Shown here: piece by piece, positions 2,712-40,607 of the stretch
Numbering within the stretch: position 1 is the first letter of the stretch
Layout of the letters: each line of letters starts with the position of its first letter
Assembly: GCF_002224645.1 (NCBI RefSeq)
Contig: NZ_CP022121.1
Span: 62,001 to 126,000 of the forward strand
DNA: 64,000 bases
Source: Dehalobacterium formicoaceticum
Lineage (GTDB): Bacteria; Bacillota; Dehalobacteriia; Dehalobacteriales; Dehalobacteriaceae
Direction: 5' to 3'
Notes under the pieces: generated by a model
Database searches by the model: none
Told to the model about the DNA's origin: nothing
What the model saw: the letters and a program-made list of their open reading frames with translations, nothing else
Program-made: the position numbers and the translations under genes

Positions 2712-2732
2712 TGGGCCACCTTCCTGGGCGGT

Positions 2733-4583: not shown

Positions 4584-4617
4584 ATAAAAATCCTCCTTAA
4601 AATTTATTAAAGTTTAT

Positions 4618-5187: not shown

Positions 5188-5221
5188 GGTCACTCTAACC
5201 ACCTACCTTTGCAAAATTTTA

Positions 5222-6769
5222 TCATATCTCAATATTTTCCTCGGTTTTCATTTTTATGATCGTATCAATGCGTAATATGGCCTCGGCAACCTCTCTTGCT
5301 GCCTGAAAAGCATGTATTTTAACCAAAGCGGGATCAATTACCCCCAAGGCAAACATATCCTCCACCCCTCCGGTGTCACAGTTTATCGCCAAAGAGGAGG
5401 TATTTCCCTCCGTTTGCGCCGCTACCACATCCCCCAGCTTTTCCAGAGGATTAAAGCCGGCATTAGCTACAATCTGGCTGAAAGGTTTTTTCAGAGCCTC
5501 CGCCACGCAATCCATACCATAAGCGGCCATACCCCTTACCTGAGAGCGCTTGCCCTCAACTTCCCGTAAAGCAGCCAATTCAATCGCTCCCCCACCGGGA
5601 AGCACGCCGCCTTGTACCGCAACCTGTACGGCAGCTGCTGCATCCTTGGCAATACGCTCCCTCTCACCGACCACTTCTTCTGTGGATGCTCCCACCTGGA
5701 TCGTGGCCATAGATTTTCCCCTGCCATTTTTAATAAAAATTTGACCTAATTTTTCATCTTCCTGCACTTGCCCGGCCCAGCCCAAATAATTTTTCAACTC
5801 GGAGCTTTCCTTTTTCAGTCCGCTTCTTTTGATCATCCTGGCTCCTGTATGCTCGGCCACCCGACGCAGCTCTTTATGAGAAACTCTTTCTACTGCCATA
5901 ATGCCCAGATCCAAAAAGATTTCTTCCGCCAGGTCATTGATGCCCCGGTCTGTCAGCACCAGGTTTACGCCTAAAGCGCCGATTTTACGCACATGGTCTT
6001 CAAATTCCTGACGCAGGGTTAAATAACGATTAAAGCCCGCTTCCGTACTCAGAGCCTCATCCTCTAATTCTTCCGGTTCTAAAGCATCATCAATGATCAA
6101 AATTCCCACTTGATCCAACCGGGTAATCATCTGCCGGTTCATACGCTCCTTATTGAGGATAACACCGGAAAAAACCTGATTTTCTGCGCCTAAAGTGGAA
6201 CAAATGGTATCCGCCAGTTTAAAACCGGGCTCCAATAACTTTTCCTTGCCAATGAGAACGGCGGCCTGGACAACTAATTGGGCAATATCCTCATGTTCCC
6301 GTCCGGCCACCAAGGCAACCTGTTTCAACACGGGATCATGCACATCTGTAATATTCTTGCTCTGATGATGAAAAACCTGCAAAACCTCTTGGGCAGCAAT
6401 GCGCATCCCTTCAATAATTCGGGCGACAGGCACTCCTTTCATCACCTGTTCCACTCCCTGGGTAATTAAGGCACCTGCCATTAAGGTAGCGGTGGTGGTT
6501 CCGTCACCAATCTCCTGATGCTGGGCCTTGGCAACATTAATGAGCATTTTTGCGGCAGGGTGACTGACCTCCATTAAATCCAGGATGGTAACCCCGGCAT
6601 TGGTAATGACCACATTGCCATACTTATCCACCAGCATGGTATCCAGGCCCTTGGGTCCTATGGTTCCTTCCACCGCCGTGGAAATAGCACGCACTGCACC
6701 GGCATTATTGATCAAAGCAGCCAATCTTTCATCTACTTCTGAGTTTTCACTTACTTGCTTTAAAGACAA
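5222..6769 (-). CDS. Group III (archaeal-type, TCP-1/thermosome-like) chaperonin inside the dnaK operon
   Basis: 515 residues that resemble archaeal thermosomes rather than GroEL: GPKGLDTMLVDKYGN near residue 40, then HPAAKMLINVAKAQ, the ATP-site motif GDGTTTATL, PGGGAIELAA in the second equatorial segment and VEDMFALGVIDP near the end. Proteins of this kind (group III, with a built-in lid) are known in some Firmicutes such as Carboxydothermus, where they also sit in the dnaK operon. The start is a TTG at 6769 with GGTGGAG six bases upstream. One oddity: the position that is Asp in the usual TNDGATIL/TKDGVT motif reads TNAGVTIL, while a second Asp (KDAAAAV) is kept. Confidence 0.92.
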   Translation of the reverse strand: MSLKQVSENSEVDERLAALINNAGAVRAISTAVEGTIGPKGLDTMLVDKYGNVVITNAGVTILDLMEVSHPAAKMLINVAKAQHQEIGDGTTTATLMAGALITQGVEQVMKGVPVARIIEGMRIAAQEVLQVFHHQSKNITDVHDPVLKQVALVAGREHEDIAQLVVQAAVLIGKEKLLEPGFKLADTICSTLGAENQVFSGVILNKERMNRQMITRLDQVGILIIDDALEPEELEDEALSTEAGFNRYLTLRQEFEDHVRKIGALGVNLVLTDRGINDLAEEIFLDLGIMAVERVSHKELRRVAEHTGARMIKRSGLKKESSELKNYLGWAGQVQEDEKLGQIFIKNGRGKSMATIQVGASTEEVVGERERIAKDAAAAVQVAVQGGVLPGGGAIELAALREVEGKRSQVRGMAAYGMDCVAEALKKPFSQIVANAGFNPLEKLGDVVAAQTEGNTSSLAINCDTGGVEDMFALGVIDPALVKIHAFQAAREVAEAILRIDTIIKMKTEENIEI

Positions 6770-6789
6770 GATAACTCCACCCTATTTCC

Positions 6790-7808
6790 TTAGTATTTTT
6801 CTAAAAGCCAGGACAATTGATCCGTCACATACTCCAAGACGGTGACTGCCTTGGAATAATTCATGCGCGTAGGCCCTAAAACCCCAATCGACCCGATGAT
6901 TTTCCCATTGATTTTATAATCGGTGGTAATCACACTGCACTGATTAATACCTTGAATGGAATTTTCTTCCCCGATAGTGATATCAGTACCGTCTTTTCTC
7001 TTCCTCATTAAAATACTTTTCACTATTTGGTCTTCTTCCAAACTGGTGAAGAGGGCTTTCAGTTTTTCCAGGTCCCGAAATTCCGGTTGGTTCAACATAT
7101 TCAGTATACCGTTCAAAAAACCCGATCATCCTTCGACTTGGTTAGCACTTGCTCCAATAGTTCTAAGGTCAGATTTTTAAAGTCGCCATGATTGCTGAAT
7201 TGATGAGATATTTCTTTTAATAGGGTACCATTAACTTTTTCCATATTAAGGCCAAATAGTTTTTTTTGCAAGAAATCACTGATTTCTTGCAGTCTTTGCG
7301 GCTCTATCGGATGAGGCAAATCTAAAACCCGATGATTAATAAAGCCTGTATCGGATACAATCACCACCATCACCCGATATAAGCTCACCGGGATTAATTG
7401 AATCCGTTCTAAAGAACCGTCTCCCCGCTTGGGCACCAAAATAATAGCCGTATAATTAGTCAGCTGTGACAAAAGATGACAGGTGGCTTGAACAATTTGT
7501 TCCAAATCCGTGTTTTTTTGGGCAAAAAAATTTTCTACCTGTTTTATTTCCGTCGGTGTTAATTTTTCTTTTTCCATCAGACAATCCACATAATAACGAT
7601 AGCCTTTATCGGAAGGAATTCTGCCCGCTGAAGTATGAGGCTGCTCTATATAGCCTAATTCCTCCAGATCGGACATCTCATTCCTGATCGTTGCCGAACT
7701 AACCCCTAAACCATATTTCTTGGAGATTGTACGGGAACCAACAGGTTCTGCGGTCGTAACATAATCGTTCACAATAGCTTGCAATATTTGCTTTTTCCGC
7801 TCATCCAA
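6790..7808 (-). CDS. hrcA: Heat-inducible transcription repressor HrcA, with a -1 frameshift
   Basis: HrcA binds CIRCE operators and represses heat-shock genes. The winged-helix N-terminal part (DERKKQILQAIVNDYV; GVSSATIRNEMSDLEELG) starts at a TTG at 7808 with AAGGGAGGGG upstream. The frame stops at 7113 after KDDRVF, and the rest (NGILNMLNQPEF... to the end) continues in another frame. The two parts together make about 339 residues, the usual HrcA length. The break falls in a run of six T (minus strand, about 7115-7120): seven T would restore the frame. So it is a base-call error, a recent mutation or a slippage site. Confidence 0.9.
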
Positions 7809-7825
7809 ATTAATCCCCTCCCTTG

Positions 7826-7852
7826 TTAGCACTCTAGCTTGTTGAGTGCTAA
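7826..7852. promoter_or_regulatory. CIRCE operator (HrcA binding site)
   Basis: A perfect CIRCE inverted repeat, TTAGCACTC-N9-GAGTGCTAA, placed between the hrcA promoter and its ribosome binding site. This predicts HrcA autoregulation and heat induction of the operon from hrcA to prmA/rsmE, including the group III chaperonin. Confidence 0.97.
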
Positions 7853-7856
7853 TTAA

Positions 7857-7885
7857 AAAATACCATTAAATATTTTATTTGTCAA
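7857..7885 (-). promoter_or_regulatory. Sigma-A type promoter of the heat-shock operon
   Basis: On the minus strand: -35 TTGACA (7885-7880), a 17-base spacer, then TATTTT (7862-7857) as -10, right before the CIRCE operator. This is the normal geometry for HrcA-repressed operons. Confidence 0.7.
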
Positions 7886-7888
7886 CCC

Positions 7889-9082
7889 TTATGGCAGGAA
7901 TTCCATAAACACCTCATTGGCAAGAAAGATACCTTGCTTCGTTAAACTGACCCGGCTCTCGGACTGTTTTATCAGTCCTAAACGGCTTAACTTAATCACT
8001 TGAGGCTGATACTTCTCCATAAAATCCACACCAAAATGTTTTTTAAAAGAAAGGGTATCAAAACCGTACAGTAGTCTTAATCCTAAAAAAACCGTTTCTG
8101 CCATTATGGTCTCCCGATCAAGTCTTTCCCAGTCTTTAACGGGGAATTTTCCTGCTTGAACCTTGCTCATATATCCCGCCAAAGAAGAAGTGTTGGTTTG
8201 CCGGATATCAGCCCAATGAGAGGCGGCGGCAAGGCCCACACCCAAATAGTTTCCATTGTTCCAGTATACCCTATTATGGACAGAAAAAAACTTGGGTAAA
8301 GCATAATTGGATATCTCGTAATGATCAAACCCTTTTGTTTCCAAATAGTCCATTGCCATCTCCTGCAAGTCCGCAGAGTCGTCCTCCGAGGGCAGGGTTA
8401 ATGAGCCGTCTTCAAATCCTTTCCCCCATGGGGATAAAGAGGATAAATGCAGTCCATACACAGATAAATGGGTGACGGGAAGGGCGGTTGCCTTTTTTAA
8501 CGTATCGTCCCATTGTTCTTTGGTCTGGCCGGGCAGTCCATAAATCAGGTCCAGACTGATGTTTGTGAAGCCTGCCGCCCGGGCATCCTCTACGGTTTTA
8601 ATGATATCTCTTACGCCATGGCTACGCCCCATCTCTTTCAGGAGCTTCTCATCAAATGACTGGGCGCCGATGGACAAACGATTGACACCGGCCTCTTTCA
8701 GCGTTGTCAAATATTCCTGATTTACCGTCAGAGGATTACATTCCACGGTAATTTCTCCATTTGCAGCCACAGGAAAGAGATTTTGCACTTCACTTAACAG
8801 AAAGATCAGCGCGAATACGGGAAGACAGGTGGGCGTACCTCCGCCAAAATAGATGGATTTGATTTTTTTCTGGCGGGGAGAAAGATGTTTATGATACAGC
8901 TTTATTTCTTGAACCAGAGCCTGACAATATTCCTGCCCCGATAAAATCTCTAAAGGATATGAAACAAAATCACAATAATTGCACTTTCTCAGGCAAAAGG
9001 GAATATGGACATAGAGAGCTTCGATCTGGGGCAAGACAGCTCCTGTCATACCCAATGGTTCTTTAACTTCGCTTAAACTCAT
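7889..9082 (-). CDS. hemW: Radical SAM heme chaperone HemW
   Basis: 397 residues. The N-terminal radical SAM cluster motif appears as CLRKCNYCDF (CxxxCxxC), followed by YFGGGTPTCLP and the HemW-type SIGAQSFDEKLLKEMGR. These proteins resemble oxygen-independent coproporphyrinogen oxidase (HemN) but act as heme-binding chaperones; the CxxxCxxC pattern followed by F rather than HemN's extra cysteine favours HemW. It is upstream of and close to the heat-shock promoter but belongs to the lepA side. GGAGACC lies before the ATG. Confidence 0.88.
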   Translation of the reverse strand: MSLSEVKEPLGMTGAVLPQIEALYVHIPFCLRKCNYCDFVSYPLEILSGQEYCQALVQEIKLYHKHLSPRQKKIKSIYFGGGTPTCLPVFALIFLLSEVQNLFPVAANGEITVECNPLTVNQEYLTTLKEAGVNRLSIGAQSFDEKLLKEMGRSHGVRDIIKTVEDARAAGFTNISLDLIYGLPGQTKEQWDDTLKKATALPVTHLSVYGLHLSSLSPWGKGFEDGSLTLPSEDDSADLQEMAMDYLETKGFDHYEISNYALPKFFSVHNRVYWNNGNYLGVGLAAASHWADIRQTNTSSLAGYMSKVQAGKFPVKDWERLDRETIMAETVFLGLRLLYGFDTLSFKKHFGVDFMEKYQPQVIKLSRLGLIKQSESRVSLTKQGIFLANEVFMEFLP

Positions 9083-9133
9083 CTTGGTCTCCTTTTCCTT
9101 TTGTGGTCAAATATAAGAATCATCAGCAGCATT

Positions 9134-9173
9134 TAAAAAATTCAGATGGAGTAAAATCATTTCCATCTGAATT
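9134..9173 (-). terminator. Intrinsic terminator after lepA
   Basis: Reading the minus strand, AATTCAGATGGA pairs with TCCATCTGAATT across a short loop and is followed by a run of six T. It lies just past the lepA stop codon, so hemW needs its own promoter or read-through. Confidence 0.85.
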
Positions 9174-9182
9174 AGAAGTTGT

Positions 9183-10985
9183 TTAATCTATTTGCAAAAC
9201 AGCCATAAATGCTTCCTGGGGTATCTCTACACTACCGATCTGTTTCATTCGTTTTTTACCCTCTTTTTGCTTCTCTAAAAGCTTTCTTTTCCGGGTAATA
9301 TCTCCCCCGTAACATTTTTCTAAAACATTTTTTCTCAAAGCTTTCACCGATTCCCGGGCAATAATCTTGTTCCCGATGGTCGCTTGGATTGGTATTTCAA
9401 ACATTTGCCGGGGAATAAGACTCCTAAGCTTTTCTGTCAAGGCCCGCCCGCGATGATAGGATTTGTCCTTGTGAACAATACAGGATAAGGCATCCACAAC
9501 GTCGCCATTCACTAAGATATCCAACTTTACCAGATCAGACTCCTTGTAGCCGTTAAATTCATAGTCCAAGGAAGCATAACCCTTGGTGCGGGATTTCAGC
9601 TGGTCAAAAAAATCAAAAATGATTTCCGATAAGGGCAGCTCATAAGTGAGCATCACCCGGGTTTCCGTAATATATTCCATATGGGTAAATTGACCCCTTC
9701 TTTCCTGGCCAATTTCCATAATGCTGCCCACAAATTCCGTAGGTACCATAATGGTCGCTTTGACATAGGGCTCTTCCATAATCGCAATTTCCTGAGGCGT
9801 TGGCATATTGGACGGGTTATCAATCTGAAGCACCGTACCATCCGTTTTTGTGATGCGATAGTTTACGCTGGGGGCAGTAGTAATTAGTTCCAATCCGTAT
9901 TCCCGTTCCAAGCGTTCCTTAATAATTTCCATATGCAAAAGGCCTAGAAAGCCGCAGCGAAAACCAAAGCCCAAGGCTACCGAGGTCTCCGGTTCATAGA
10001 TTAAAGAGGCATCATTCAACTGCAGTTTTTCCAAAGCATCTTTCAATTCCCCATAGTCATTATTCTCAATGGGGTACAAGCCGCAGTAAACCATGGGTGT
10101 TGCCTTGCGATATCCCGGCAAAGGCTTATCCGTCGGTCGATCCTGATCTGTTACCGTGTCCCCCACCTGGGTTTCTTTCACATTCTTGATGCTGGCGGCC
10201 AGGAATCCTACATCCCCCGCCGCCAGGGTATCCACAGTTTTAACGGCTGGAGTGAAAATCCCCACTTCCTTTACTTCCGCGGTTTTTCCTGTGCCCATCA
10301 TTTTTATATTTGTTCCTTTTTCAATTTTGCCGTCCATCACCCGGATATAAGGAATAGCCCCTTTATAAGCATCAAAATGGGAATCAAAAATCAGAGCCCT
10401 TAAAGGCGCCTCCCGGTCTCCTCCCGGGGGTTTGATTCGATGAACGATGGCTTCTAAAATATCTTCCGTACCAAGTCCGCTTTTCGCCGAGCAAAGAATC
10501 GCCTCACTGGCATCTAGTCCTAAAACATCTTCAATCTGATTTCGTACCCCTTCCGGATCGGCACTGGGTAAATCAATTTTATTGATCACCGGAATGATTT
10601 CCAAATCGTTTTCCAAAGCAATATAAGCATTAGCCAGGGTTTGGGCTTCAATGCCCTGGGCGGCATCCACCACTAAAAGAGCCCCCTCGCAGGCGGCCAT
10701 GCTTCGGGAAACTTCATAAGTAAAATCTACATGCCCCGGAGTATCAATCAAATTCAAGGTATATTCCTTGCCATCCCTGGCTTGATATTGAATACGCACC
10801 GCCTTCATTTTAATTGTAATCCCGCGTTCTCTTTCCAGATCCATGTGATCCAATACCTGAGCTTCCATCTCCCGAGCAGATAAAGCGCCTGTATATTCTA
10901 AAATCCGGTCTGCCAAAGTAGACTTCCCGTGATCTATATGTGCAATAATACAAAAATTCCGGGTAGTTTCCCGGTTTGTCATCAT
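9183..10985 (-). CDS. lepA: Translation elongation factor 4 (LepA)
   Basis: About 600 residues. G1 motif [10 protein letters not shown]2-region RERGITIK, G3 DTPGHVDF and G4 NKIDLPSA are all present, followed by the LepA-specific C-terminal domain ending with [13 protein letters not shown] and [10 protein letters not shown]. LepA is a ribosome-associated GTPase involved in translation fidelity or ribosome assembly. Several start codons lie together (GTG 10991, ATG 10985, ATG 10982); I chose 10985. Confidence 0.97.
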
Positions 10986-11084
10986 TACCACCCCTCAGCC
11001 TCCTGTTTCCGTAACAAATTTTATCATATTAATACATTATATCATTTATTTTTCTTTCCTGACAGCCCCTTGAAAAGTTGTTCC

Positions 11085-12677
11085 TCAGGCACTTTTCCTG
11101 CGCAATTTGCGGCGGAGAATACCTAAAACCAACTCTGACTCCTCCATACGGAAAACAATTGCAAAGACGGCAAAAACAACGATCCCTACGCCGATACTAA
11201 GAGACAGCTGCAACAATTGAGCTAATTTTGTTTCCACACCCCAGATCATCACGCAAAACCGAGCTGTATAAAAACAAGCGATACCCATAATGGAGGATGC
11301 CAGCAAAGTCTGGCCAAAGGAACGGATCATTTGCCGGCCGTTCATGGCACCGATTTTTTTGCGCAGCATCCAAAGAAGGATGAGCATATTTAAAATTCCC
11401 GCCAGGGAATAAGCCAGAGCTAATCCTCCCTGGGCCATGGGACCTACCAATAAAATACTTAAGGTGATATTGGCCGCAATGGCCAAAGCGCCTACAAATA
11501 CGGGAATCATGGTATTTTGCAGTGCATAGAAGGCTCGGCTCACCACGTGAATGGCAGAATAGGCAAAAAGACCGATACAATAATAAAGCAGTGCGTAGGC
11601 AGTAGCCAAAGTATCCTGATGGGTAAACTTGCCGTTATCAAATTCAAACATGAAGCGGATGATCGGCACTCTCAAAACAGCCAAACCCACGGCACATGGC
11701 AGGGTAATAAAAATAACGGACCTTAAGCCTAAAGAAAATGTTTTTTTAAATGCTTCCCTTTCCCTTTTGGCAGCTTGCTCCGTTAGGGTAGGAAAGACCG
11801 CCACGGCAATGGCAATAGCAAAAATCCCCACCGGGAGCTGCATTAACCTTTGTGCGGTATTCAGAGCAGCGATGCCTCCGGCGGGCAGAGAGGAGGCCAG
11901 ATTTTGGTTGACAAAAAGATTGATTTGGCTGATGGATAACCCAATCAAAACAGGTACCATTAATTTTACCAGGCGGACGACACCGGGGTGAAAAATATTA
12001 AAATTCGGCTTAAATCTGAAGCCGATTCTTAAGAGGGCCGGAACCTGAACGGCAAAATTGGCCATCGCACCCAGCACCACGCCAATAGAGAAACCGGCAA
12101 TGCCATACCCCGGCCAAATGGATTCAATCCACTTTCCAAATAAGACCCCGCAAACAATAATCCCTAAATTATACAATACGGAGCCGATGGCGGAAGGTGT
12201 GAAAATCTTGTAGGAATTCAAGATTCCCATGGATATCCCAGATAAGGCCATAAAAATAACCTGAAGCAGTATAATTCTGGTCAAGGTCACGGTTAATTCC
12301 ATGGCTGCCGGATCAAAACCAGGCACCAATAACAAGATTAATTCCGGTGTAAAAATAAAGCCCAGAAAAATCCCGATTCCTAAGAGCATCATAATTAGGG
12401 TGATAACGACGCTGGCGACCTGCCATCCTTCCTCTTCACGCTGGGTCGCGATATAACCGGAAAATACCGGGATAAAGGAAGAGCTTAAAGCCCCGCCCAC
12501 TAATAACATATATAGAAAATCCGGGATGGAAAAGGCGGCATTATAGGCATCTGTAATTCTGTTTTGTCCATATTGAGCGTAAATAATAATATCCCGCAGA
12601 TAGCCCAGGATACGGGAAACGACCATGGTAACCATCAGAAAGCCTGCCGCTTTTACTACTCTATTATTTTGTGACAT
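11085..12677 (-). CDS. murJ: Lipid II flippase MurJ (MviN family)
   Basis: 530 residues, very hydrophobic, with about 14 predicted membrane segments. It begins NNRVVKAAGFLMVTMVVSRILGY, the typical MurJ/MviN start (the first helix with the conserved SRILG), and ends with a short basic tail (RRKLRRKSA). MurJ moves lipid II across the membrane for peptidoglycan synthesis. It stands as a single gene between lepA and a small secreted-protein gene. Confidence 0.93.
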   Translation of the reverse strand: MSQNNRVVKAAGFLMVTMVVSRILGYLRDIIIYAQYGQNRITDAYNAAFSIPDFLYMLLVGGALSSSFIPVFSGYIATQREEEGWQVASVVITLIMMLLGIGIFLGFIFTPELILLLVPGFDPAAMELTVTLTRIILLQVIFMALSGISMGILNSYKIFTPSAIGSVLYNLGIIVCGVLFGKWIESIWPGYGIAGFSIGVVLGAMANFAVQVPALLRIGFRFKPNFNIFHPGVVRLVKLMVPVLIGLSISQINLFVNQNLASSLPAGGIAALNTAQRLMQLPVGIFAIAIAVAVFPTLTEQAAKREREAFKKTFSLGLRSVIFITLPCAVGLAVLRVPIIRFMFEFDNGKFTHQDTLATAYALLYYCIGLFAYSAIHVVSRAFYALQNTMIPVFVGALAIAANITLSILLVGPMAQGGLALAYSLAGILNMLILLWMLRKKIGAMNGRQMIRSFGQTLLASSIMGIACFYTARFCVMIWGVETKLAQLLQLSLSIGVGIVVFAVFAIVFRMEESELVLGILRRKLRRKSA

Positions 12678-12743
12678 TCACTTTGCTCCTTGCATTTCAC
12701 TGATCCAACAAGAAAGAAAATTCATCTTTCAGCGAATTAAGAA

Positions 12744-12766
12744 TCCCGCCTATAAAGGCGGGAGGA
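12744..12766 (-). terminator. Weak hairpin after the small exported protein gene
   Basis: CCCGCC and GGCGGG pair around a loop of TATAAA between the small gene and murJ. The T-run that normally follows a terminator is poor, so it may be an attenuator or only an mRNA-stabilising stem. Confidence 0.35.
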
Positions 12767-12782
12767 GATACTGATTTATTCA

Positions 12783-13103
12783 TTATAACTCAAGATAATC
12801 ATTGTGACCAGTGTTCAACAACTTTTTTCCCCAAAAAAATACAATTTTTTTGGCTTGGAAATAAAGTTCCCGACCCTGATCCTTTATCATTTGGATCCTG
12901 CTTAGAGCTATCCCTGAATCCCATTGATATTCCCGTCCTAAAGCCGATACATGGACGATTTGATTTTCTGTCGTTAGCCGAAAGATCACCTGGGAAATTT
13001 CAGGGGACATTTTTTCCACACCTTGAGCAGCCATATTCAAACCTAAAAAAACGAAACATCCGGTTATGATCAGAACCTTTGCGAATTTGGAACCGCTTTT
13101 CAC
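12783..13103 (-). CDS. Small exported protein of unknown function
   Basis: 106 residues, not recognised. The N-terminus (basic KSGSKFAK, then a hydrophobic stretch VLIITGCFVFLGLNMAAQG) looks like a signal peptide or membrane anchor. The rest (about 75 residues) has no cysteine pair or catalytic motif I can name. It sits 25 bases downstream of spoIIP in the same direction, so it may be co-transcribed and have a sporulation-linked role; that is inference only. A small GC-rich hairpin (12746-12763) lies after its stop. Confidence 0.55.
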   Translation of the reverse strand: MKSGSKFAKVLIITGCFVFLGLNMAAQGVEKMSPEISQVIFRLTTENQIVHVSALGREYQWDSGIALSRIQMIKDQGRELYFQAKKIVFFWGKKLLNTGHNDYLEL

Positions 13104-27224: not shown

Positions 27225-28685
27225 ATGAGCTTGGAAATGATCATCGGTACAATTCTTTTCTTTGCCAGTATTATCGTGGTAACTTTTCTGGCAAAAAAAC
27301 ATACCGGCAATCTGAAAAATTATTTAATTGGTAACAGCAACGTAGGCGGTGCGGTTTCAGCTTTTACCTGGACTGCTTCTGCTGCCAGTGCGGGACTCTT
27401 TTTAGGTGCAGCCGGTTTGGCCTATCAATATGGATGGGCGGGGTTAATGTATTTGATCGGTGTATTTGGCAGCATGTTTATCAGCTGGGTTTTTGTCATT
27501 CCCAAACTAAGACGGGTAGCTGTCAGCCGTTCGATCTTAACAACGCCGGACTACTTAGTTATGCGTTACGGTGAAAAAAGAATAAAAATAATCTCCGCTT
27601 TTTGGACCTTGGTTTTTATTGTTCCCATGATTATTGTGCAATTCGTGGGCGCCGGCTATTTAATCGAATCCACACTGGGCTTGAACTATTTTTGGGGTAT
27701 GATTATTATCGGTTTGACAGTAGCCATCTCCACACAACTAAGCGGTTATATGGGAGTTGCTTGGTTGGATACCCTGCAAGGATCTATTATGACCATAGGA
27801 ACCATTGTCATGGTTTATCTTTCTCTGCAAATGATGGGGGGATTTACTAATTTAAACCTTAAGCTTGCCGCCATTGATCCGAGTCTGGTTCAGTTTACCG
27901 GTAACATGCCCCTTTCTTTGCAAATCGGACTGATTGTTTCTTACCTGGTGGCCTTTTGGGGACAACCCCATCTTACTGCCCGGGTATGGGGCTTAAAAGA
28001 TAGCAATGCACTGCGTTCGGCTTTGCCTATTTCCATGATTCTTGGTGTGATCTGGTCCTTCGGCGCCGGATTGGTGGGCTTATCTGCCCGGGTGCTGCAC
28101 CCCGGTCTTGCATCGCCTGATATGGCTATGCCCAGCGTAATCAACGGCTTGCCGGTATTCTATACCGCTCTGTTGTTTTTTACCCTTATTGCCGCCATGA
28201 TGACCACAGCAAATTCCTTGCTTTTAACAGCTGCCGGTTCGGTAAGCAATGATATTCTGCCTTTATTTATTAAAGATCAAGACGATCCCCGGGTACTTTA
28301 TGGGGCAAAACTGATGGTTCTGGTGATCGGTGTGCTTTCCTTCGTTTTGGCTCTTAAGCCACCGGACCTAATTCTAAAAATCAACGCTTTTGCCTTCGGC
28401 GGATATGCCCTTATTTTCGGCATCCCTTTATTTCTAGGCGTGATGTGGAAAAAGGCCAATCTATCCGGTGCCATGATCGCTTTGACAGCAAGTCCTATCA
28501 TCTATATTGCTTGGAAAATGTTTTTATCCCGGCCGACGGGGATTCATGAAATGATCGCTGCCCTGGCGATAACGATTGTTTTGATTCTTTTGGCCACCTT
28601 ATTTGGTAAAAAACCTACAGAGCAAATGCTGGAGATTTATTCACTGGGGCAAATACCCAAAAATGATCAGGAGGGTCATCAATGA
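27225..28685 (+). CDS. Sodium:solute symporter family transporter
   Basis: About 486 residues with 12-13 hydrophobic segments; the start is ATG 27225 (GAAGGGTGA upstream). The family is indicated by SAFTWTASAASAGLFLGAAGLAYQYGW-type sequence in helix 2 and the overall SSS layout. Members import solutes such as proline, pantothenate or carboxylates with sodium. The substrate is unknown; since the gene overlaps the GrdB-type gene by four bases (ATGA), it most likely imports the substrate of that reductase. Confidence 0.88.
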   Translation: MSLEMIIGTILFFASIIVVTFLAKKHTGNLKNYLIGNSNVGGAVSAFTWTASAASAGLFLGAAGLAYQYGWAGLMYLIGVFGSMFISWVFVIPKLRRVAVSRSILTTPDYLVMRYGEKRIKIISAFWTLVFIVPMIIVQFVGAGYLIESTLGLNYFWGMIIIGLTVAISTQLSGYMGVAWLDTLQGSIMTIGTIVMVYLSLQMMGGFTNLNLKLAAIDPSLVQFTGNMPLSLQIGLIVSYLVAFWGQPHLTARVWGLKDSNALRSALPISMILGVIWSFGAGLVGLSARVLHPGLASPDMAMPSVINGLPVFYTALLFFTLIAAMMTTANSLLLTAAGSVSNDILPLFIKDQDDPRVLYGAKLMVLVIGVLSFVLALKPPDLILKINAFAFGGYALIFGIPLFLGVMWKKANLSGAMIALTASPIIYIAWKMFLSRPTGIHEMIAALAITIVLILLATLFGKKPTEQMLEIYSLGQIPKNDQEGHQ

Positions 28686-29995
28686 AAAAGCAAATAAATG
28701 TCCTGCACTATTTGAATCAATTTTATGGAGGGATTGGGGGTGAAGAAAAAGGCGATGCCCCTCTGGAGTTCCGTGCAGGGGCCATCGGCATCGGCGAGGA
28801 TCTTGCCCGGTTGCTGGGGCCGGATTTTGTTATGAGCAGCACAGCTATTTGCGGTGATAACTATTTTCAGGAAAATCAGGAAGAGGTTCTGGGGGAGTTA
28901 AGAGAGAAGCTGCAAAATTCCGATGTGGATTTAATTGTGGCCGGACCGGCCTTTGGCGCAGGCCGTTATGGCATCGCCTGCGGTGCTGTTTGTGATCATC
29001 TTACCAACTCTTTGGATATTTTTGCCTTGATGGGGATTTCCCCGGACAACCCTGGAGTGGAGATGTATCGGCAAAATGAACGCATCTATATGCTGCCCAC
29101 AACGAAAACCATGCGGGGCATGAAGGATGCTCTCATCAAAATGGCTGCTTTTGCCCAAAGGATCAGTTCGGGGGAAGAAATAGGACCGGCCAAAAAAGAA
29201 GGCTATCTTCCCCGGGGCATCCGCAAGGTAATTTTTCGTGAGGAAACAGGGGCTAAAAGGGCTGTAGAAATGCTGGAAGCCAGACTTCAGGGCAGAACAT
29301 ATGAGAGTGAATTGGTTTTGCCTGTTTTTGAAAAAGTCACCCCTCCGGCACCAATTAGTGATATCTCAAAGGCAAAAATTGCTCTTGTAACAACGGCTGG
29401 TGTTGTTCCCAAAGGTAATCCGGATCAAATTAAAGCCTTAAATGCAGAAAACTGGGCCAAATATCCTCTGGATTTGCTCTTATCCCGGGACTACGAATGT
29501 ATTCATGGAGGAATTAACCCCGACTATATTAATGCCCGGGCAGAATTCGTTGTCCCTGTGCAAACAGCATACAAGCAGCAAGAGCAGGGACAAATCGGTG
29601 CCCTTTTTGATCAGTATTTTGTCACAGCCGGCTGCGGCGGTGTCATTCATGTTTTTCAAAGAATGGGTCATGAGATGGCGGAAGCTTTGGCAGATATGGG
29701 AGCAGATGGTGTGATCCTGACCAGCACCTGAGGTACGGATACGCGCGGCGGAGCTGTGCTGGCTAAAGAAATTGAAAAACAGGGTATCCCGGTGGTATTG
29801 TTTACGGCAATGATCCCTCTGGCAAAACAAGTGGGGGCACACCGAATTGTCAAAGGAGTAAAAATTCCCCATCCATGGGGCGATCCCTCCTTAAGCCCTG
29901 AGAATAATCAACGCATTGAGGAAAAGATTTTCCAGGCTGCTTTGGATTTACTGCAAAGAGAAGTTCAAGAGCCTGTTGTGTTTCAGCCTGTTTAA
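28682..29995 (+). CDS. GrdB-family selenoprotein (component B of a glycine-reductase-like complex), Sec at codon 350
   Basis: 437 residues if UGA at 29729-29731 is read as selenocysteine. The sequence matches the glycine/sarcosine/betaine reductase component B selenoprotein throughout: VLHYLNQFYGGIGGEEK at the start, AGPAFGAGRYGIACGAVC near 95, and ADGVILTST-U-GT around the UGA; after it the frame continues AVLAKEIEKQGIPVVLFTA to a TAA at 29993. In characterised GrdB the selenocysteine sits in UxxCxxC; here it reads U-GTD-TRG, with both cysteines replaced. So the family is clear but the substrate and redox chemistry may differ. Confidence 0.92.
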
Positions 29996-30023
29996 GAATC
30001 AATTTAAGAAAGGGGGTTATCCC

Positions 30024-31319
30024 ATGTCCCTTGAAATGGGTACCTTTCATGTTGAAAAAGTTATCTTAGATAATAAAACATTTTTAGAGCAAAGAACATT
30101 ATATATCAATCCCCGGGAGCTGGAGGAATTGCTTTTAAAAGATCCGGCCCTGGCAAAGGTTAAGATAGAAATCGTCGGCCCCGGAGAGAATGCCCGTATT
30201 ATCCATATCATGGATGCAGTGGAGCCCAGAATAAAAATTAAGGGCGGCGACGTGGTTTATCCGGGCATTGAAGCTCCTGTTTACCGCGGGGGTTCCGGCA
30301 CCACATACCGCCTGGATGGGGTTGCTGTGATCACCTCCTGCCTGATTCCTTTGAGGAAAGCCGGCGGCCTTTACATTGCCCGGGAAGGAATTTTAGATAT
30401 GGCCGGGCCGAATGCACCATTAACCCCTTTTTCCGAAACCTGGAATGTGGTTCCTGTGATTACGGTACAGTCCGGCTTGGATGAAGAAACATATGAAAAG
30501 GCGCTGCGCAATGCCGGGGTCATTGCCGCCCGTTATTTAGGTGAGGTTATGCGGGAATTAACACCGGATTCCCTTCAGCTTTACTCCACTGACGAAAAAA
30601 ACCCGGATTTACCCAATGTGATCTACATTAACCAATTGGAATCCTGTGGTCTTTATGGACGCAATTATCTTTATGGCATGAGTTTTGATGATCTGCTGCC
30701 TACCATGATTCATCCCAATGAACTGATGGATGGAGCCATCGTCAATGCCCTCCATTCCCATACGGCGGTTCAGACCCCCACTTATTATCAGACCAACAAC
30801 CCCATTGTGGAAGAGTTATACAAAAGGCACGGCAAAAGCTGGAACTTTAACGGAGTGATTGTGTGCCGGGGTCATTTTGAAGACATTGACAGCAAGTACC
30901 GCTGTGCCAACTTGGTGGCAGGTATGGCGCAAATGATGCAGGCGCAAGGGGTGATTGCCACCTGGGAATGCGGGGGCAACACCTTTATGGAAACCATGCT
31001 TTACTTAAAGGAATGTGAACAGATGGGCATAAAAACCGTTCTGGTTACCTATGAACACGGGGGAGCTGATGGCAGGGACAATCCTCTGTTTTATTTTGAA
31101 CCGGAGGTGAACAGCATCGTGAGCACCGGCAGTCTTGATCGGGCGATCCACTATCCGCCGGTGGATCGGGTGGTAGGGGGAGATATGATCCGCCTTTATC
31201 CGGAAGAAGGGGGTGTGCTCTATCCTGCTCACCAAGCTCTGGACCTTAATTATCGCTTGGAATCCTGGTGCTCCTGCAACAATGTGGGCATAGTCAATAC
31301 CAGCTGCGACGAGTTTTAA
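30024..31319 (+). CDS. GrdE-family subunit (component B proprotein-like), apparently without the pyruvoyl cysteine
   Basis: 431 residues from ATG 30024 (AAAGGGGG upstream). It matches GrdE/GrdG/GrdI proproteins: GGDVVYPGIEAPVYR near 75, FSETWNVVPVITV near 137, and NNPIVEELYKRHGK near 260. In known members a cysteine just before the NNPVIEELYKRHG segment becomes an N-terminal pyruvoyl group after self-cleavage. Here that region (about residues 239-259) is NALHSHTAVQTPTYYQ with no cysteine. It may be unprocessed or use another residue. Lies between grdB-type and grdA-type genes. Confidence 0.85.
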   Translation: MSLEMGTFHVEKVILDNKTFLEQRTLYINPRELEELLLKDPALAKVKIEIVGPGENARIIHIMDAVEPRIKIKGGDVVYPGIEAPVYRGGSGTTYRLDGVAVITSCLIPLRKAGGLYIAREGILDMAGPNAPLTPFSETWNVVPVITVQSGLDEETYEKALRNAGVIAARYLGEVMRELTPDSLQLYSTDEKNPDLPNVIYINQLESCGLYGRNYLYGMSFDDLLPTMIHPNELMDGAIVNALHSHTAVQTPTYYQTNNPIVEELYKRHGKSWNFNGVIVCRGHFEDIDSKYRCANLVAGMAQMMQAQGVIATWECGGNTFMETMLYLKECEQMGIKTVLVTYEHGGADGRDNPLFYFEPEVNSIVSTGSLDRAIHYPPVDRVVGGDMIRLYPEEGGVLYPAHQALDLNYRLESWCSCNNVGIVNTSCDEF

Positions 31320-31388
31320 AAATATCAAAGATAATAAAGGAAGGGAACTTGAAATAAAGCTTTAAATAGCGAAGGAAGGAGCAGCTTA

Positions 31389-31883
31389 ATGCTAAAGGGA
31401 AACAAAGTGATGGTGATCGGTGACCGGGACGGAGTCCCCGCCCAGGCTCTGGAAGAGATGGTTGTCAGCGCCGGGGGTGAAGTGATTTTTGCTGCCACCT
31501 ATTGTTATGTGTGAACTTCCGCCGGAGCAATGGACCAGGAAAACCAAGCTCAGATCAAGGCTTTGTCGGCCAAATACCCCCGGGAAGAAATCGTGGTGGT
31601 ATTAGGCAGCGGAGAGCCGGAAATGTCCGCCCTTTTGGCGGAAACTGTAGCCATGGGAGATTTTAGCCGTATAGGTCCATTAGCAGGAGTCCAGTTAGGA
31701 CTCCCCGCCTATCATATTGTGGAAGATGTCATAAAAACAGAAGTTCCACCTGAGGTATACGCCGGTCATATGGCCATGATGGAAATGGTGCTTGATGTTA
31801 CGGGGATCAGTCGAGATGTTTCTGCGGTAAGAAATCAACTGAATAATAACCATCGGCAAGAGCAAAGGAGCAAAAAACCATGA
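31389..31883 (+). CDS. grdA: Glycine-reductase selenoprotein A (GrdA), Sec at codon 42
   Basis: 164 residues with UGA at 31512-31514 read as selenocysteine. GrdA features are clear: VIGDRDGVPAQALEE near residue 9, the catalytic CYV-U followed by TSAGAMDQENQ, GPLAGVQLGLPAYH and MMEMVLDVTGIS. The C-x-x-U motif is intact, unlike that of the GrdB-type partner. GrdA takes up the carboxymethyl group as a selenoether and passes it to component C, which makes acetyl phosphate. GGAAGGAGCAG lies upstream of the ATG; the stop overlaps the grdC start (ATGA). Confidence 0.95.
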
Positions 31884-33304
31884 GCTTTCCGATTATCAAA
31901 AGCACCGCCTATGCTTTAATCCATACACCGGGACTGATGTTAGAGGAAATGCGCCATAAAGGCATCCCTTTAGCATCAACTCAAAAGTCATCTGTGAGAA
32001 ATTTTGAAGAAGTCCTCGCCTATCTGCCCAATCAGGTATTTATCGGAAACATGGCCCCTGAGGAATTAACAAAGCTCCCTCGCCCCTGGTTTAGACAGCT
32101 TTTAGCGCAAGCTAAGCGCAAGGGGAAATTTGGTGAAATATTGCCTGAAGAAGAATTCCTCGCCCTGATGAAGGCAGTAGATGTTTATGGTCTTGTCTGT
32201 CTGGAAAAATCCTTCCAGGAAAGAACTATTAAAAAAATTGCCGCCCACCCGGCACTTCAAAGCTTAAAAGGTGTCCAGGTGCCCCAAGATACGGGATATG
32301 AAATGCAGGAAATTAAAAGAATGATTCAAGAAGAGGCCTGTGTGCCCCTAACCTGTGAAGGCACCATTCAAGGCTGCGTCAAAAAGGGCCATACCACAGA
32401 TAATGCCCTGACCGCCCGGCACATCAGGGAAAACTTGGCCGCCAAGGCTTCCGGGGTGCTTGCCCTGCAGCTTCTTTTGCAGCAATCAGGCTTAAAACGG
32501 TCAGAAGTGGATTATGTCCTGGAAGTATCCGAAGAATCCTGCGGCGATGACGGTCAAAAAGGGGGCGGTGGTTTTGCGAAATCCATTGCTGAAGCCTGTT
32601 CCTGCACGAATGCCACCGGATCCGATATTCGCGCTTTTTGTGCCGCTCCGGTACACGGGATGATGCAGGGTGCCGCCTTGGTTCAGGCAGGAATATTTCA
32701 AAACGTGGTGGTGGTCGGAGGAGGATGCACTGCCAAGCTGGGCATGAATGGGGTTGTGCATCTCAAGAACCAAATGCCCTTGCTGGAGGATATGCTGGGT
32801 TCTTTTGCCTGTCTGATCAGCACCAATGATCATATTCATCCTGTGATACGCACCGATCTGATTGGCCGTATGAAAGTATCCTGCGGGGATTCTCCCCAAA
32901 ATGTCTTCAAAGAATTGGTGCGTGAACCCCTGGCTCGGGGCGGTTATAAAATATCCCAAATTGACCGCTTTGCTGCCGAACTGGTGAACCCTGAGATTAT
33001 TGAACCTACCGGCTGCGGTGATGTGACGAAGCGAAATTATCAAATGATTGCCTCTTTAGGGGTGCTCCAGGGTGAATATGGCCCGGATCAGATCAGCAAA
33101 GAAATAAACCGTTTCGGGGTACCGGGTTATGCTCCCAATCAAGGGCACATCCCTTCAGGAATCCCTTTTATCGGTCATGCCTGTCAGAGGATATTAGACG
33201 GAGAAATGAAGCAAGCAATGATTATCGGGAAAGGCAGTCTCTTTTTAGGAAAATTAACCCGTCTTTATGATGCCCTTTCCCTGATCATCCAGAAGAATAC
33301 GTAA
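31880..33304 (+). CDS. grdC: Glycine-reductase component C, beta subunit (GrdC)
   Basis: 474 residues, related to thiolases/ketoacyl-ACP synthases as GrdC is. Features: VYGLVCLEKSFQERT, the conserved SEESCGDDGQKGGGGFAKSIAEACSC region near 215, and CAAPVHGMMQGAALVQAG near 252. With GrdD, component C converts the acetyl-selenide from GrdA into acetyl phosphate. No grdD follows in this window: the next frames are a terminator and an unrelated small gene. So C may be incomplete or grdD may be elsewhere. Confidence 0.88.
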   Translation: MSFPIIKSTAYALIHTPGLMLEEMRHKGIPLASTQKSSVRNFEEVLAYLPNQVFIGNMAPEELTKLPRPWFRQLLAQAKRKGKFGEILPEEEFLALMKAVDVYGLVCLEKSFQERTIKKIAAHPALQSLKGVQVPQDTGYEMQEIKRMIQEEACVPLTCEGTIQGCVKKGHTTDNALTARHIRENLAAKASGVLALQLLLQQSGLKRSEVDYVLEVSEESCGDDGQKGGGGFAKSIAEACSCTNATGSDIRAFCAAPVHGMMQGAALVQAGIFQNVVVVGGGCTAKLGMNGVVHLKNQMPLLEDMLGSFACLISTNDHIHPVIRTDLIGRMKVSCGDSPQNVFKELVREPLARGGYKISQIDRFAAELVNPEIIEPTGCGDVTKRNYQMIASLGVLQGEYGPDQISKEINRFGVPGYAPNQGHIPSGIPFIGHACQRILDGEMKQAMIIGKGSLFLGKLTRLYDALSLIIQKNT

Positions 33305-33323: not shown

Positions 33324-33366
33324 AGAAAAGTATGTCCTTTCCGGAAAGGGCATACTTTTCCTTTTA
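33324..33366 (+). terminator. Terminator of the Grd-like operon
   Basis: AAAAGTATG(T)CCTTT and AAAGG(G)CATACTTTT pair around CCGG and are followed by CCTTTT. It closes the riboswitch-controlled operon about 20 bases after grdC. Confidence 0.85.
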
Positions 33367-33567
33367 GATCTGTGACTAATTGATAAGATATTAATTGACG
33401 AGCTGAAGGGAAAGGTTTTATAATTATCAAAAACAGGTGCAACACTTTGTTCTTCTTATAGGATTGCGGTTATTTGGCAGATAACTTAGCTAACCATTTT
33501 TGCGTTAAACCTTAGTGCTTCATTATAGTGTAGATAGTGTAGGTTTAAATAATAGGAGTTGATATTG

Positions 33568-33858
33568 ATGCAAAAATTAAACGTTGAGATATTTGTAAAC
33601 GGCAACTGAGTGCGCGGGGCTTTAATGGCCGATTCGGTAAGGTCTTTACCGATTGAAATTACAGATCGTATTACCTTGCAAATGAGAAACTGCTTTACGC
33701 GGGAAGGCTTAGACCGTAAAAAGGAGCTGAACGTTCTTGTCATTCCTTCAATAACCATTAATGAAATGCTGGCTTTTGAGACACAAGTTCCGGACGAGGA
33801 AGAACTAATTGAAGCTATGGATGAGTTTCTCCAAGATTGTGATAAAAACACAAATTAG
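33568..33858 (+). CDS. Probable small thioredoxin-fold selenoprotein, UGA at codon 14
   Basis: With UGA (33607-33609) read as selenocysteine the frame gives 96 residues: QKLNVEIFVNGN-U-VRGALMADSV at the start. AATAGGAGTTG provides a ribosome binding site only for the ATG at 33568; nothing similar serves the GTG right after the UGA. The first beta strand followed by U at a turn and a helix, then VLVIPSITINEM (a cis-proline-like step) and VPDEEELIEAMDEFL, look like a small thioredoxin fold with U in the place of the first active-site cysteine. The genome clearly uses selenocysteine (grdA, grdB-type). It may instead be a nonsense allele. Own transcript, after the Grd terminator. Confidence 0.6.
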
Positions 33859-33895: not shown

Positions 33896-35806
33896 ATGAT
33901 GGTCATGACAGTACTGGCACTGCCAGTAGATCAACGGGTAATTGACATTGATTCCAGACGTTTCGCCTCGATAGAAAAAGCCCTGGTGGAACTGATTACC
34001 AACTGCGATGACAGCTATGTGCGGCTGGAACGCAAGGGGTTCATGGTGGCCGGAAAAATTGGCATCAGTTACAAACGCTATAAAAATGGCTCTGTTCTCA
34101 CCGTCAGTGATCAGGCTGAAGGCATGTCCTTTGACCGCATACGTTCTGTGCTTTCTTATGGCGGAGCACATAGTCTTATGTCCCAAGGAGTATCCGGGGG
34201 CCGGGGGTTTTTCGGCCGAGGCATGAAACAGGCTATTTTCGGTTTGGGTCACGGTTGGATTGAATCCATTTTTGAAGGCAGATACAGCCGGGTAGATCTT
34301 TTCCGGGGCGAGGACGGCCGCTATCTTTTTGACGACGGAGATACTGATCGGCCGGCGGAAGAAAAAGACTACCATCGCCTTCATCTTACCCCCGGAGACA
34401 CAGGCAGCATGGTAACCATTGTGGTGGACAATCCTCAGACCAATATCCCTTATTTTTCCTCCCTTTCCGCTACCATCAGCAACAATATCTATTTGCGGGA
34501 CATTTTATTCCGACGCTCTGTAGAAATAACCAACCGCAACCTGAAGGGCAGAAAGAGAATCTCCCTGACTCTGGCTTTTGAGGAACCGGAAGCAGAAGTG
34601 CTGGTGGGACCGGACTTCCTCGGATCCTTCATTTACGAGGAAAAAGCCTTTCCTTTTTACCTCACCTTGAAAAAATCCTTGGACGAAGAGCTGGTTTTGA
34701 AGGGGGACGAACGCACCAATGGATTATTAATTATTTCCGGTACCGCCGTCTTTGACTGCCAGTTTCTTAATTTTGAAAATCAACTGGGTACGGAATTCCT
34801 TTTTGGCACGGTGCGCTGCCCCGGGCTCAGCGAGATGATGGCAGAAGGCGTCCCTATTATCAGCGATGAACGGGAAGGTCTGAACCTCAAGGATCCTTTT
34901 GTGCTTGCTTTTTCCGATGGGGTCAGTGAATTGATCCGGGATCCTGTCAACAGGGAAAGACAGCGTCTCAGTCATATTGAGCGGGCCACAACATCCCGTC
35001 GCACTCAAAATCTCATTGGACAGGTTTTACAGAAGATGAACCAGGTTGCCATTGAGGATTTAAATATCATGATTTCACCCGGTCCGGGTTCCGGCAAACC
35101 GGGTCCCTTTGATACAGGCCGTCCGGCTGTGCTGCGCTTCAGCACCCCCTTTTATTACCGCAAGGTAGCAAAAGCTTTTCATGTATCCCTGCTGGTGAAT
35201 CAAGATGCTCTTCCGGAAGGAGAGGAAATCACAGTTGAATACAACTTGCCGCCAAGCATTCTGGTACAGCCTGATCCAACAGTTTTAAGCGCCAGGGATA
35301 TACCTGAAGACGGACGCTTTCAGTGGAAGGTTATCGGAGACGAAGTGGATGCCCGGGGAAGAATCACCGTCAGCTGCGGTCCTTATTCCGCAACAGGAGA
35401 AATTGTTATAGCAGAAAATGCCCAGGGCAAAGGTTATGAGCATCCTGCCGAAAACCCCGCCCTCCCCTGGCATATGGATAACGCTTCGGTTCTGTTCCGG
35501 GGTTACGAGCTGCGCAATTTAAACAACGAAGTGGACCGGGCTGTTTACAGCCCGGAAGACAGGCTGATTATTATTAATACGGAGGCACCCACGGTACGCC
35601 TCTATGTGGATGGACAGGGTCGTTTTAAAGACGGGGCCCGGCTTTTACTGGCGGAACTTCTCCTGGATGTGATTACCGATGAACTGGCCCGCCTGTATGT
35701 GGACCGGACCACCAAAAAGGGTCAGAGGGAAGCCTACCGGCAAGCCAAGCAGGATATGGTTCGACGCTATGGTGTGGATGTCCATTCTATTCTTTCCGGT
35801 GTCTGA
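33896..35806 (+). CDS. GHKL-type ATPase protein of unknown function (HSP90/MutL/MORC-like fold)
   Basis: 636 residues from ATG 33896, though ATG 33905 is better placed after GGGAAAGG. The N-terminal 120 residues hold a GHKL ATP site: VELITNCDDS (N box, residues 31-40), VSDQAEGMS (G1-like, near 71) and GGRGFFGRGMKQ (lid, near 101), then GDTGSMVTI. The following 500 residues are not recognised and end in a helical domain with many charged residues. No kinase DHp domain or response regulator is near. It may be a chaperone-like, DNA-linked or stress ATPase; neighbours are TPM and PspA genes. Confidence 0.7.
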   Translation: MMVMTVLALPVDQRVIDIDSRRFASIEKALVELITNCDDSYVRLERKGFMVAGKIGISYKRYKNGSVLTVSDQAEGMSFDRIRSVLSYGGAHSLMSQGVSGGRGFFGRGMKQAIFGLGHGWIESIFEGRYSRVDLFRGEDGRYLFDDGDTDRPAEEKDYHRLHLTPGDTGSMVTIVVDNPQTNIPYFSSLSATISNNIYLRDILFRRSVEITNRNLKGRKRISLTLAFEEPEAEVLVGPDFLGSFIYEEKAFPFYLTLKKSLDEELVLKGDERTNGLLIISGTAVFDCQFLNFENQLGTEFLFGTVRCPGLSEMMAEGVPIISDEREGLNLKDPFVLAFSDGVSELIRDPVNRERQRLSHIERATTSRRTQNLIGQVLQKMNQVAIEDLNIMISPGPGSGKPGPFDTGRPAVLRFSTPFYYRKVAKAFHVSLLVNQDALPEGEEITVEYNLPPSILVQPDPTVLSARDIPEDGRFQWKVIGDEVDARGRITVSCGPYSATGEIVIAENAQGKGYEHPAENPALPWHMDNASVLFRGYELRNLNNEVDRAVYSPEDRLIIINTEAPTVRLYVDGQGRFKDGARLLLAELLLDVITDELARLYVDRTTKKGQREAYRQAKQDMVRRYGVDVHSILSGV

Positions 35807-37895: not shown

Positions 37896-38141
37896 TTAAA
37901 ATTCAATCATTTTTGCCTGGACACCATCTATCAGCGCCAATTCATTAAACATGGATTGTATTTCATTTTCAAGTCTTGTTAATTGAAGTATAATAATTCC
38001 ATCCATTGAACAATGATCTTCATTTGCTTCATGAAATCCAATTCGTGTCTTGATGTTGCATCCATATCTTGTTAATATCTCTTGAACAAGTGGAGCATTT
38101 GCAGTTCTTCCATTGACTTTAATTGCCATTAACCTACCCAA
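37896..38141 (-). CDS. Small ACT/ferredoxin-like-fold protein with possible metal motif, copy 1
   Basis: 81 residues from TTG 38141 (AGGGGGAATT upstream). A beta-alpha-beta pattern (MAIKVNGRTANAPLVQEILTR; GIIILQLTRLENEI; VQAKMIEF) resembles small ACT-like regulators such as the hydrogenase-linked TM1266 family. The central HEANEDHC holds His and Cys residues spaced a little like the metal site of NikR; this is inference. A near-identical gene lies at 40.4 kb. It directly follows the tail of a broken ABC ATPase gene. Confidence 0.6.
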   Translation of the reverse strand: MGRLMAIKVNGRTANAPLVQEILTRYGCNIKTRIGFHEANEDHCSMDGIIILQLTRLENEIQSMFNELALIDGVQAKMIEF

Positions 38142-38232
38142 TTTAATTCCCCCTAAATTTATTTTAATAATTGCTTCCCAAGGCAAGTGCCCAACGTAAC
38201 CTACATTTCCTCAACAAAGCAATAACCAAGAA

Positions 38233-40361: not shown

Positions 40362-40607
40362 TTAAAATTCAATCATTTTTGTCTGGACGCCATCTATCTG
40401 TGCCAATTCATTAAACATGGATTGTATTTCATTTTCAAGTCCTGTTAATTGAAGTATAATAATCCCATCCATTGAACAATGATCTTCATTTACTTCATGA
40501 AATCCAATTCGTGTCTTGATGTTGCATCCATATCTTGTTAATATTTCTTGAACAAGTGGAGCATTTGCAGTTCTTCCATTGACCTTAATTGCCATTAACC
40601 TACCCAA
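40362..40607 (-). CDS. Small ACT/ferredoxin-like-fold protein, copy 2
   Basis: 81 residues from TTG 40607, differing from copy 1 at only about four to five residues (HEVNEDHC instead of HEANEDHC, for example); the DNA match extends about 265 bases, including the ribosome binding site. Located between a toxin gene and the second riboswitch. The two copies point to a duplicated operon. Confidence 0.6.
   Translation of the reverse strand: MGRLMAIKVNGRTANAPLVQEILTRYGCNIKTRIGFHEVNEDHCSMDGIIILQLTGLENEIQSMFNELAQIDGVQTKMIEF

Follow-up and report, generated by a model that had tools for sequence, protein, structure and literature searches.

Evidence for a thioredoxin-fold selenoprotein gene of a UxxG type in Dehalobacterium formicoaceticum

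A short gene of Dehalobacterium formicoaceticum, located in a window of 64,000 nt (the whole stretch of DNA analysed, positions 62,001 to 126,000 of contig NZ_CP022121.1), almost certainly encodes a selenoprotein, and its product is probably small, cytosolic and of the thioredoxin fold. As judged from its sequence, the product is a thioredoxin with a single selenol, lacking a resolving Cys in the active-site motif, and it very probably belongs to a clade with the motif UxxG, in which U is selenocysteine (Sec). The best explanation overall, which we hold with moderate confidence, is that of a one-selenol thioredoxin-fold selenoprotein that would be resolved by a partner and whose family would be linked to corrinoid methyl transfer. 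The features of the region are collected in Table 1.

Table 1. Features of the selenoprotein gene and its surroundings (positions in the window)
Feature	Position	Strand	Basis
Thioredoxin-fold selenoprotein gene (predicted), 96 codons, active site N-U-V-R-G	33568..33858	+	translation with TGA as U, UGA-sharing homologues, AlphaFold
In-frame UGA (predicted Sec14), at the place of the first Cys of CxxC	33607..33609	+	alignment to 1nho/1fo5 and CAAC paralogues
Ribosome binding site AGGAG, 9 nt 5′ of the ATG	33554..33558	+	sequence
bSECIS hairpin UCGGUAA-GGUCU-UUACCGA	33634..33652	+	7 bp, 5-nt loop with GG first, 31 nt after the UGA
Intrinsic-terminator-like hairpin ending the grd operon	33325..33360	+	16-pair stem, then CTTTT
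Promoter-like TTGACG-18-TATAAT for the selenoprotein gene	33395..33424	+	11/12 consensus match
GHKL-type ATPase (HATPase_c_3)	33896..35806	+	Pfam PF13589; 38 bp downstream of the selenoprotein gene
GrdA selenoprotein (CYVUTSAG), separate operon	31389..31883	+	NF040748, 195 bits against a cut-off of 130
GrdB-type selenoprotein (U350), separate operon	28682..29995	+	TIGR01918/PF07355

The in-frame UGA and its decoding as selenocysteine

The preliminary description had proposed an ATG with its own ribosome binding site, whose frame meets a UGA at codon 14 and then runs on for 82 codons; all of these were recovered at exactly the same coordinates, the frame being closed by a TAG. Translated with TGA as Sec, it gives MQKLNVEIFVNGNUVRGALMADSVRSLPIEITDRITLQMRNCFTREGLDRKKELNVLVIPSITINEMLAFETQVPDEEELIEAMDEFLQDCDKNTN, with MQKLNVEIFVNGN at the N-terminal side of the UGA-encoded residue. 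Of 1,239 read-through frames in the window, this was the only one matched by a profile of UxxG proteins from which the window protein had been left out (E = 3.6e-24), and a profile from UxxC relatives alone hit it at E = 1e-19. By these sequence comparisons, homology of the frame is far beyond chance. With the window protein alone as query, homologues 43% and 40% identical over 84 residues were obtained from 399 genomes of the phylum, the former at E = 4e-15 in a single-sequence search, and both contain one in-frame TGA each, at the codon-14 site. The same single query against the genome contigs returned no relatives, which an alignment-led scan of these contigs did find, and the alignment of nine diverse family members was too variable to be used for a pattern scan of viral contigs. 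No second copy of the gene was found in the organism's own genome (one contig, 3,766,545 bases).

UGA occupies the identical site in at least eight homologues from other genomes, and it was present in every UxxG member found, these carrying UASG in Desulfofundulus, Desulfovirgula MAGs, Desulfotomaculum copahuensis and Bacillota MAGs, UAPG in an extra copy, and UVRG in the window protein. Homologues with Cys at codon 14, for which a search had been suggested, exist as CAAC and CAPC forms, some of them being paralogues within the gene clusters of the relatives. Trp, Arg or Gly, the residues named beforehand as contrary evidence, were absent from this place, and all of the aligned homologues have UGA or Cys there. 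Within the UxxG clade itself, the genomes searched gave no Cys form. The earlier statement that this genome reads UGA as Sec was borne out by a tRNA-Sec with anticodon UCA, by SelB, and by Sec codons in GrdA and GrdB-type genes.

A bacterial SECIS hairpin, the other check proposed at the outset, is present downstream of the UGA and covaries across the family. According to the published bSECIS criteria (PMC13188914), the loop should have 3–9 nt with a G in the first two positions, the stem 4–16 bp, the distance from the UGA 16–37 nt, and the minimum free energy (MFE) a value of −7.5 or lower; the window hairpin lies within all four (GGUCU loop, 7 bp, 31 nt, −7.6 kcal/mol), with a z of −3.2. In a gap-free alignment of the 60 nt after the UGA of 22 sequences (21 distinct), a hairpin of 7 bp, its small loop having G at position 1 or 2, stands 31 nt after the UGA and, through compensatory changes, is kept in Bacillota and as far as Desulfobacterota. 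In its stem 98.6% of the cells are paired and 14 cells are altered on both sides, pair 28-46 occurring as GC, UG, UA or CG and pair 29-45 as CG or UA, and the covariation score was 0.242, where shuffles gave 0.097 and slid versions no more than 0.087. The stem Leu is encoded by UUA in 21 of the 22 sequences, while UUA makes up about 2–11% of the Leu codons in genes around the homologue loci.

Among 13 Cys paralogues, 10 were without such a hairpin or had none that scored; two had hairpins that were weak or expected from the protein, and one had a hairpin that is placed elsewhere and appears fortuitous. Four UxxC relatives contain a shorter alternative candidate hairpin closer to the UGA, which by itself is not significant. 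Taken singly, the window hairpin is only moderately unlikely, with an equally good one in about 4% of synonymous recodings (P about 0.04), and the whole 60-nt fold after the window UGA is not unusual; the case for a SECIS element therefore rests on the family comparison. No Rfam match was found in the SECIS region, as expected because bacterial SECIS elements are diverse.

These data bear on two readings that do without Sec. The long branch of the window protein and the lack of a second gene copy would suit a Cys-type thioredoxin gene in decay, with the UGA as a nonsense mutation, but the same UGA in all UxxG relatives, the conserved SECIS, the frame that is otherwise open behind a ribosome binding site, and a genome that decodes Sec leave this reading a negligible chance. 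Equally slight is the chance that translation starts only at GTG 33610 or a later ATG, giving an N-terminally short protein and leaving the upstream part untranslated: such ORFs stand in the mechanical list and would be annotated by a Sec-blind pipeline, but residues 1-13, ahead of the UGA, align with those of all relatives and form the predicted strand 1, and the good ribosome binding site belongs to the upstream ATG. The core of the preliminary description, a thioredoxin-fold selenoprotein, thus stands on the conserved UGA, the Cys homologues, the SECIS hairpin and the predicted fold.

Predicted fold, active site and related families

An AlphaFold model made with 25 family members predicted a thioredoxin fold (pLDDT 88.8, pTM 0.79) with the topology beta-alpha-beta-alpha-beta-beta-alpha, consisting of strand 4-10, U14, helix 15-25, strand 35-41, helix 45-53, Pro60, strands 61-64 and 67-71, and helix 77-93. 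Foldseek with this model retrieved thioredoxins (TM about 0.6-0.7, E about 1e-4), and a sequence search led to two archaeal thioredoxins, 1nho and 1fo5, in which the first Cys of CxxC aligns with U. The arrangement predicted earlier, that is, U after the first strand, a cis-proline-like step and a final helix, recurs in the model, where U14 follows strand 4-10 and N-caps helix 1, Pro60 precedes strand 61-64, and helix 77-93 comes last. The comparison of U with the first active-site Cys of small thioredoxins likewise held, but a second Cys of the thioredoxin type does not follow: the motif is U-V-R-G in place of a CxxC or UxxC pair, and the entire clade is UxxG.

In a phylogenetic tree, the window protein fell within the UxxG clade with support of 98/93, and it stayed there when the active-site stretch was removed (92/84), although on a long branch of about 2 changes per site. 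In common with its UxxG relatives, the window protein has a deletion of two residues before U and a Gly at +3. The UxxC group, found in Bacillota and Desulfobacterota, has the motifs UAAC, UTAC, UIAC, ULAC, UVAC, UTPC, UMPC and UIPC. This sister family (FRQUxxC) shares the fold family and the SECIS hairpin with UxxG and is encoded directly upstream of UxxG in Desulfofundulus and allies; it differs in keeping the resolving Cys and in having two more residues before U. A CxxC group comprises CAAC and CAPC proteins, single or fused behind a UroD domain, and a further group, with HUIPC or HCIPC, is NCBIfam NF047660.

Comparison with curated families placed the window protein near several of them and inside none. 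It scored 17.7 bits against Pfam PF13192 (Thioredoxin_3), below the gathering cut-off of 24.8, and is thus of a related fold without being a formal member; against NF047660 (HUIPC_Trx_selen), the closest family that has a name, it scored 26.9 bits, far below the cut-off of 105, with N-U-V-R-G facing H-U-I-P-C. NF047660 proteins resemble the window family as small Thioredoxin_3-like selenoproteins with Sec at the first active-site position, and their genes occur in the same clusters as those of the UxxG and UxxC relatives, but they are UxxC proteins with His before U and form a separate clade. The archaeal small thioredoxins (MJ0307 = 1fo5; 1nho; TIGR00411/PF13192) agree with the window protein in fold, size and active-site position; they differ in having CxxC without Sec, and the window protein lies below the curated cut-offs of those families. 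The thioredoxin-like selenoproteins Sec.1 and Sec.2 (CxU and UxC; both PF13192) and SaoT (NF040730; UxxC), as given in PMC13188914, have motifs unlike UxxG, and in NCBIfam the window protein had no match to SaoT.

More broadly, neither the UxxG nor the UxxC group reached any NCBIfam 2026 model, a UxxG thioredoxin-fold family was absent from the consulted parts of the 2026 inventory of 119 prokaryotic families (PMC13188914), and the main text of the deep-Sep paper mentions neither thioredoxin nor UxxG. No described family was found for the window protein in these sources; the source paper of HUIPC (Haft and Tolstoy 2025) may still contain a mention of the UxxC/UxxG forms.

Corrinoid methyl-transfer clusters and the chemistry proposed

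Genes around the U-thioredoxins of the relatives encode MtaA-like UroD methyltransferases, RACo-like activases, MtrH, B12-binding proteins, CobW GTPases and GcvH-like proteins. One UroD/corrinoid cluster type has been linked to the metabolism of methyl-sulfur and methyl-selenide (PMC10418091); the Type 1 mlp clusters of that study, for which a role in methyl-S/methyl-Se metabolism is proposed, likewise contain a corrinoid protein, an activase and UroD-family methyltransferases, which makes the clusters of the relatives candidates for that type, and the window gene lies outside any such cluster. In Desulfofundulus, UxxG has the UxxC gene immediately upstream and an SMC-like ATPase gene after it; short SMC-like ATPases after the U-thioredoxin gene were seen in Bacillota and Desulfobacterota (L091:8429-9397, L030:10566-11537, L097:344-1333). 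The Desulfobacterales clusters include thioredoxin-reductase-like flavoprotein genes (L095:14199-15125, L098:11867-12793), whose product is a possible electron donor. In the organism's own genome, a UroD-CAAC fusion adjoins CobW, another UroD protein and a corrinoid protein, and the window gene has neither a UxxC partner nor a methyltransferase cluster next door.

Three further loci were recorded. A corrinoid methyltransferase cluster of Desulfofundulus australicus (L030:7076-10587, same as L086) contains, within about 3.5 kb, a tandem row of eight thioredoxin-like genes with the motifs CAAC, DHNLSC, CRKC, CPSC, CTGM, HCIPC, UAAC and UASG, six being clear matches and two weak. A second UxxG gene (NUAPG) of a D. 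copahuensis-type genome (L137:8477-8780 = L136:1501-1790) is placed apart from the methyltransferase cluster, near a LysR gene and one that by eye is selD-like, and its frame is broken in the second half. In a third case (L138, genome G483, 1875-13000), the UxxG-bearing cluster stands beside genes that by eye are sulfoacetaldehyde acetyltransferase-, ETF-, acetate kinase- and phosphonatase-like, hinting at C2-sulfonate metabolism.

Since paralogues lie inside corrinoid methyl-transfer clusters, the most likely role of the family, as far as sequence context can tell, is that of a reductant which during methyl transfer acts on thiol or selenol groups, or on the corrinoid/zinc methyltransferase, and keeps them in the reduced state. 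In the mechanism proposed, Sec14 would cap helix 1 at the place of the nucleophilic Cys, near the Pro60 loop, and its acidic selenolate would attack a partner at a disulfide, selenenylsulfide or comparable electrophilic S/Se bond. As position +3 is Gly, not Cys, the mixed Se-S bond could not be resolved within the active-site motif, and a second thiol, most likely that of another thioredoxin-like protein, would have to release it. In monothiol glutaredoxins, the mixed bond is likewise released by a second thiol. For the relatives, the UxxC paralogue encoded upstream would be the obvious resolving partner, together with CxxC paralogues in corrinoid methyl-transfer clusters, while in the organism's own genome the likeliest partner of known type would be the UroD-CAAC fusion, encoded elsewhere, or a general thioredoxin. 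We regard one-selenol redox chemistry of the window protein itself as rather probable, and a service of this copy to corrinoid methyl transfer as doubtful, because its long branch and the lack of a UxxC partner or methyltransferase cluster nearby suggest that its role may have shifted.

A single selenol without a resolving Cys in the motif would also suit a carrier or binder of selenide, a metal or a methyl group, in place of a redox enzyme. The second UxxG copy near the selD-like gene and the tie of related corrinoid clusters to methyl-selenide metabolism (PMC10418091) point the same way, but that copy has a broken frame, the thioredoxin fold with the Pro60 loop is retained in the AlphaFold model, and the sister forms UxxC and CxxC are typical of redox proteins; we consider such a carrier unlikely.

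Less probable still is a role as the electron carrier dedicated to the neighbouring Grd system (glycine/sarcosine/betaine reductase-like), replacing the thioredoxin that reduces GrdA. In its favour, the gene follows a GrdC-type gene by 264 bp, and thioredoxin is the established reductant of Grd systems (see also PMC13188914). The preliminary description had placed the gene next to a Grd-like operon, which is correct for its position, but a functional link did not hold: terminator-like and promoter-like sites separate the two; the genomes G239, G256 and G280, of which the last two hold the closest relatives, have UGA-containing relatives and no grdA; and G001, G002 and G003, genomes of the same family with 2-5 grdA genes, gave no UGA-containing homologue. 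Without consistent co-occurrence and with these separating sites, proximity to grd is no functional evidence, and the selenoprotein gene probably forms a separate unit, as far as can be read from the DNA. The promoter-like site is a consensus match only, as 2 matches of such quality were found against 2.1 expected in shuffles. The downstream GHKL ATPase gene is possibly co-transcribed; as a conserved partner it was rejected, one distant relative having been found in 399 genomes.

The Grd-like operon itself (28682-33304) is divergent, its GrdA being the lowest-scoring of four copies in the genome, its B-type proteins falling far short of the equivalog cut-offs set for known substrates, and GrdC not being followed by GrdD. 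Elsewhere in the window, two near-identical ORFs of about 80 aa (GRLMAIKVNGRTANAPLVQEILTRYGC...; 37896-38186 and 40362-40607, minus strand), 2.2 kb apart, represent a local duplication.

Returning to the one-selenol reading, we tentatively propose an undescribed, Sec-only UxxG subfamily of the thioredoxin fold, with up to eight thioredoxin-like paralogues in one cluster, which would perform one-selenol chemistry for corrinoid methyl transfer, possibly of methyl-S or methyl-Se. A thioredoxin that keeps the selenol only and has dropped the resolving Cys raises the question of why Sec is indispensable there, and the occurrence of UxxC and UxxG in tandem, next to MtaA-like methyltransferases and corrinoid activases, suggests that corrinoid methyl transfer has a thiol/selenol step as yet unexplored. 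Because Sec-blind gene callers would stop or restart such genes at the UGA, this small and scattered selenoprotein family has likely been missed in sulfate reducers and dehalogenating anaerobes.
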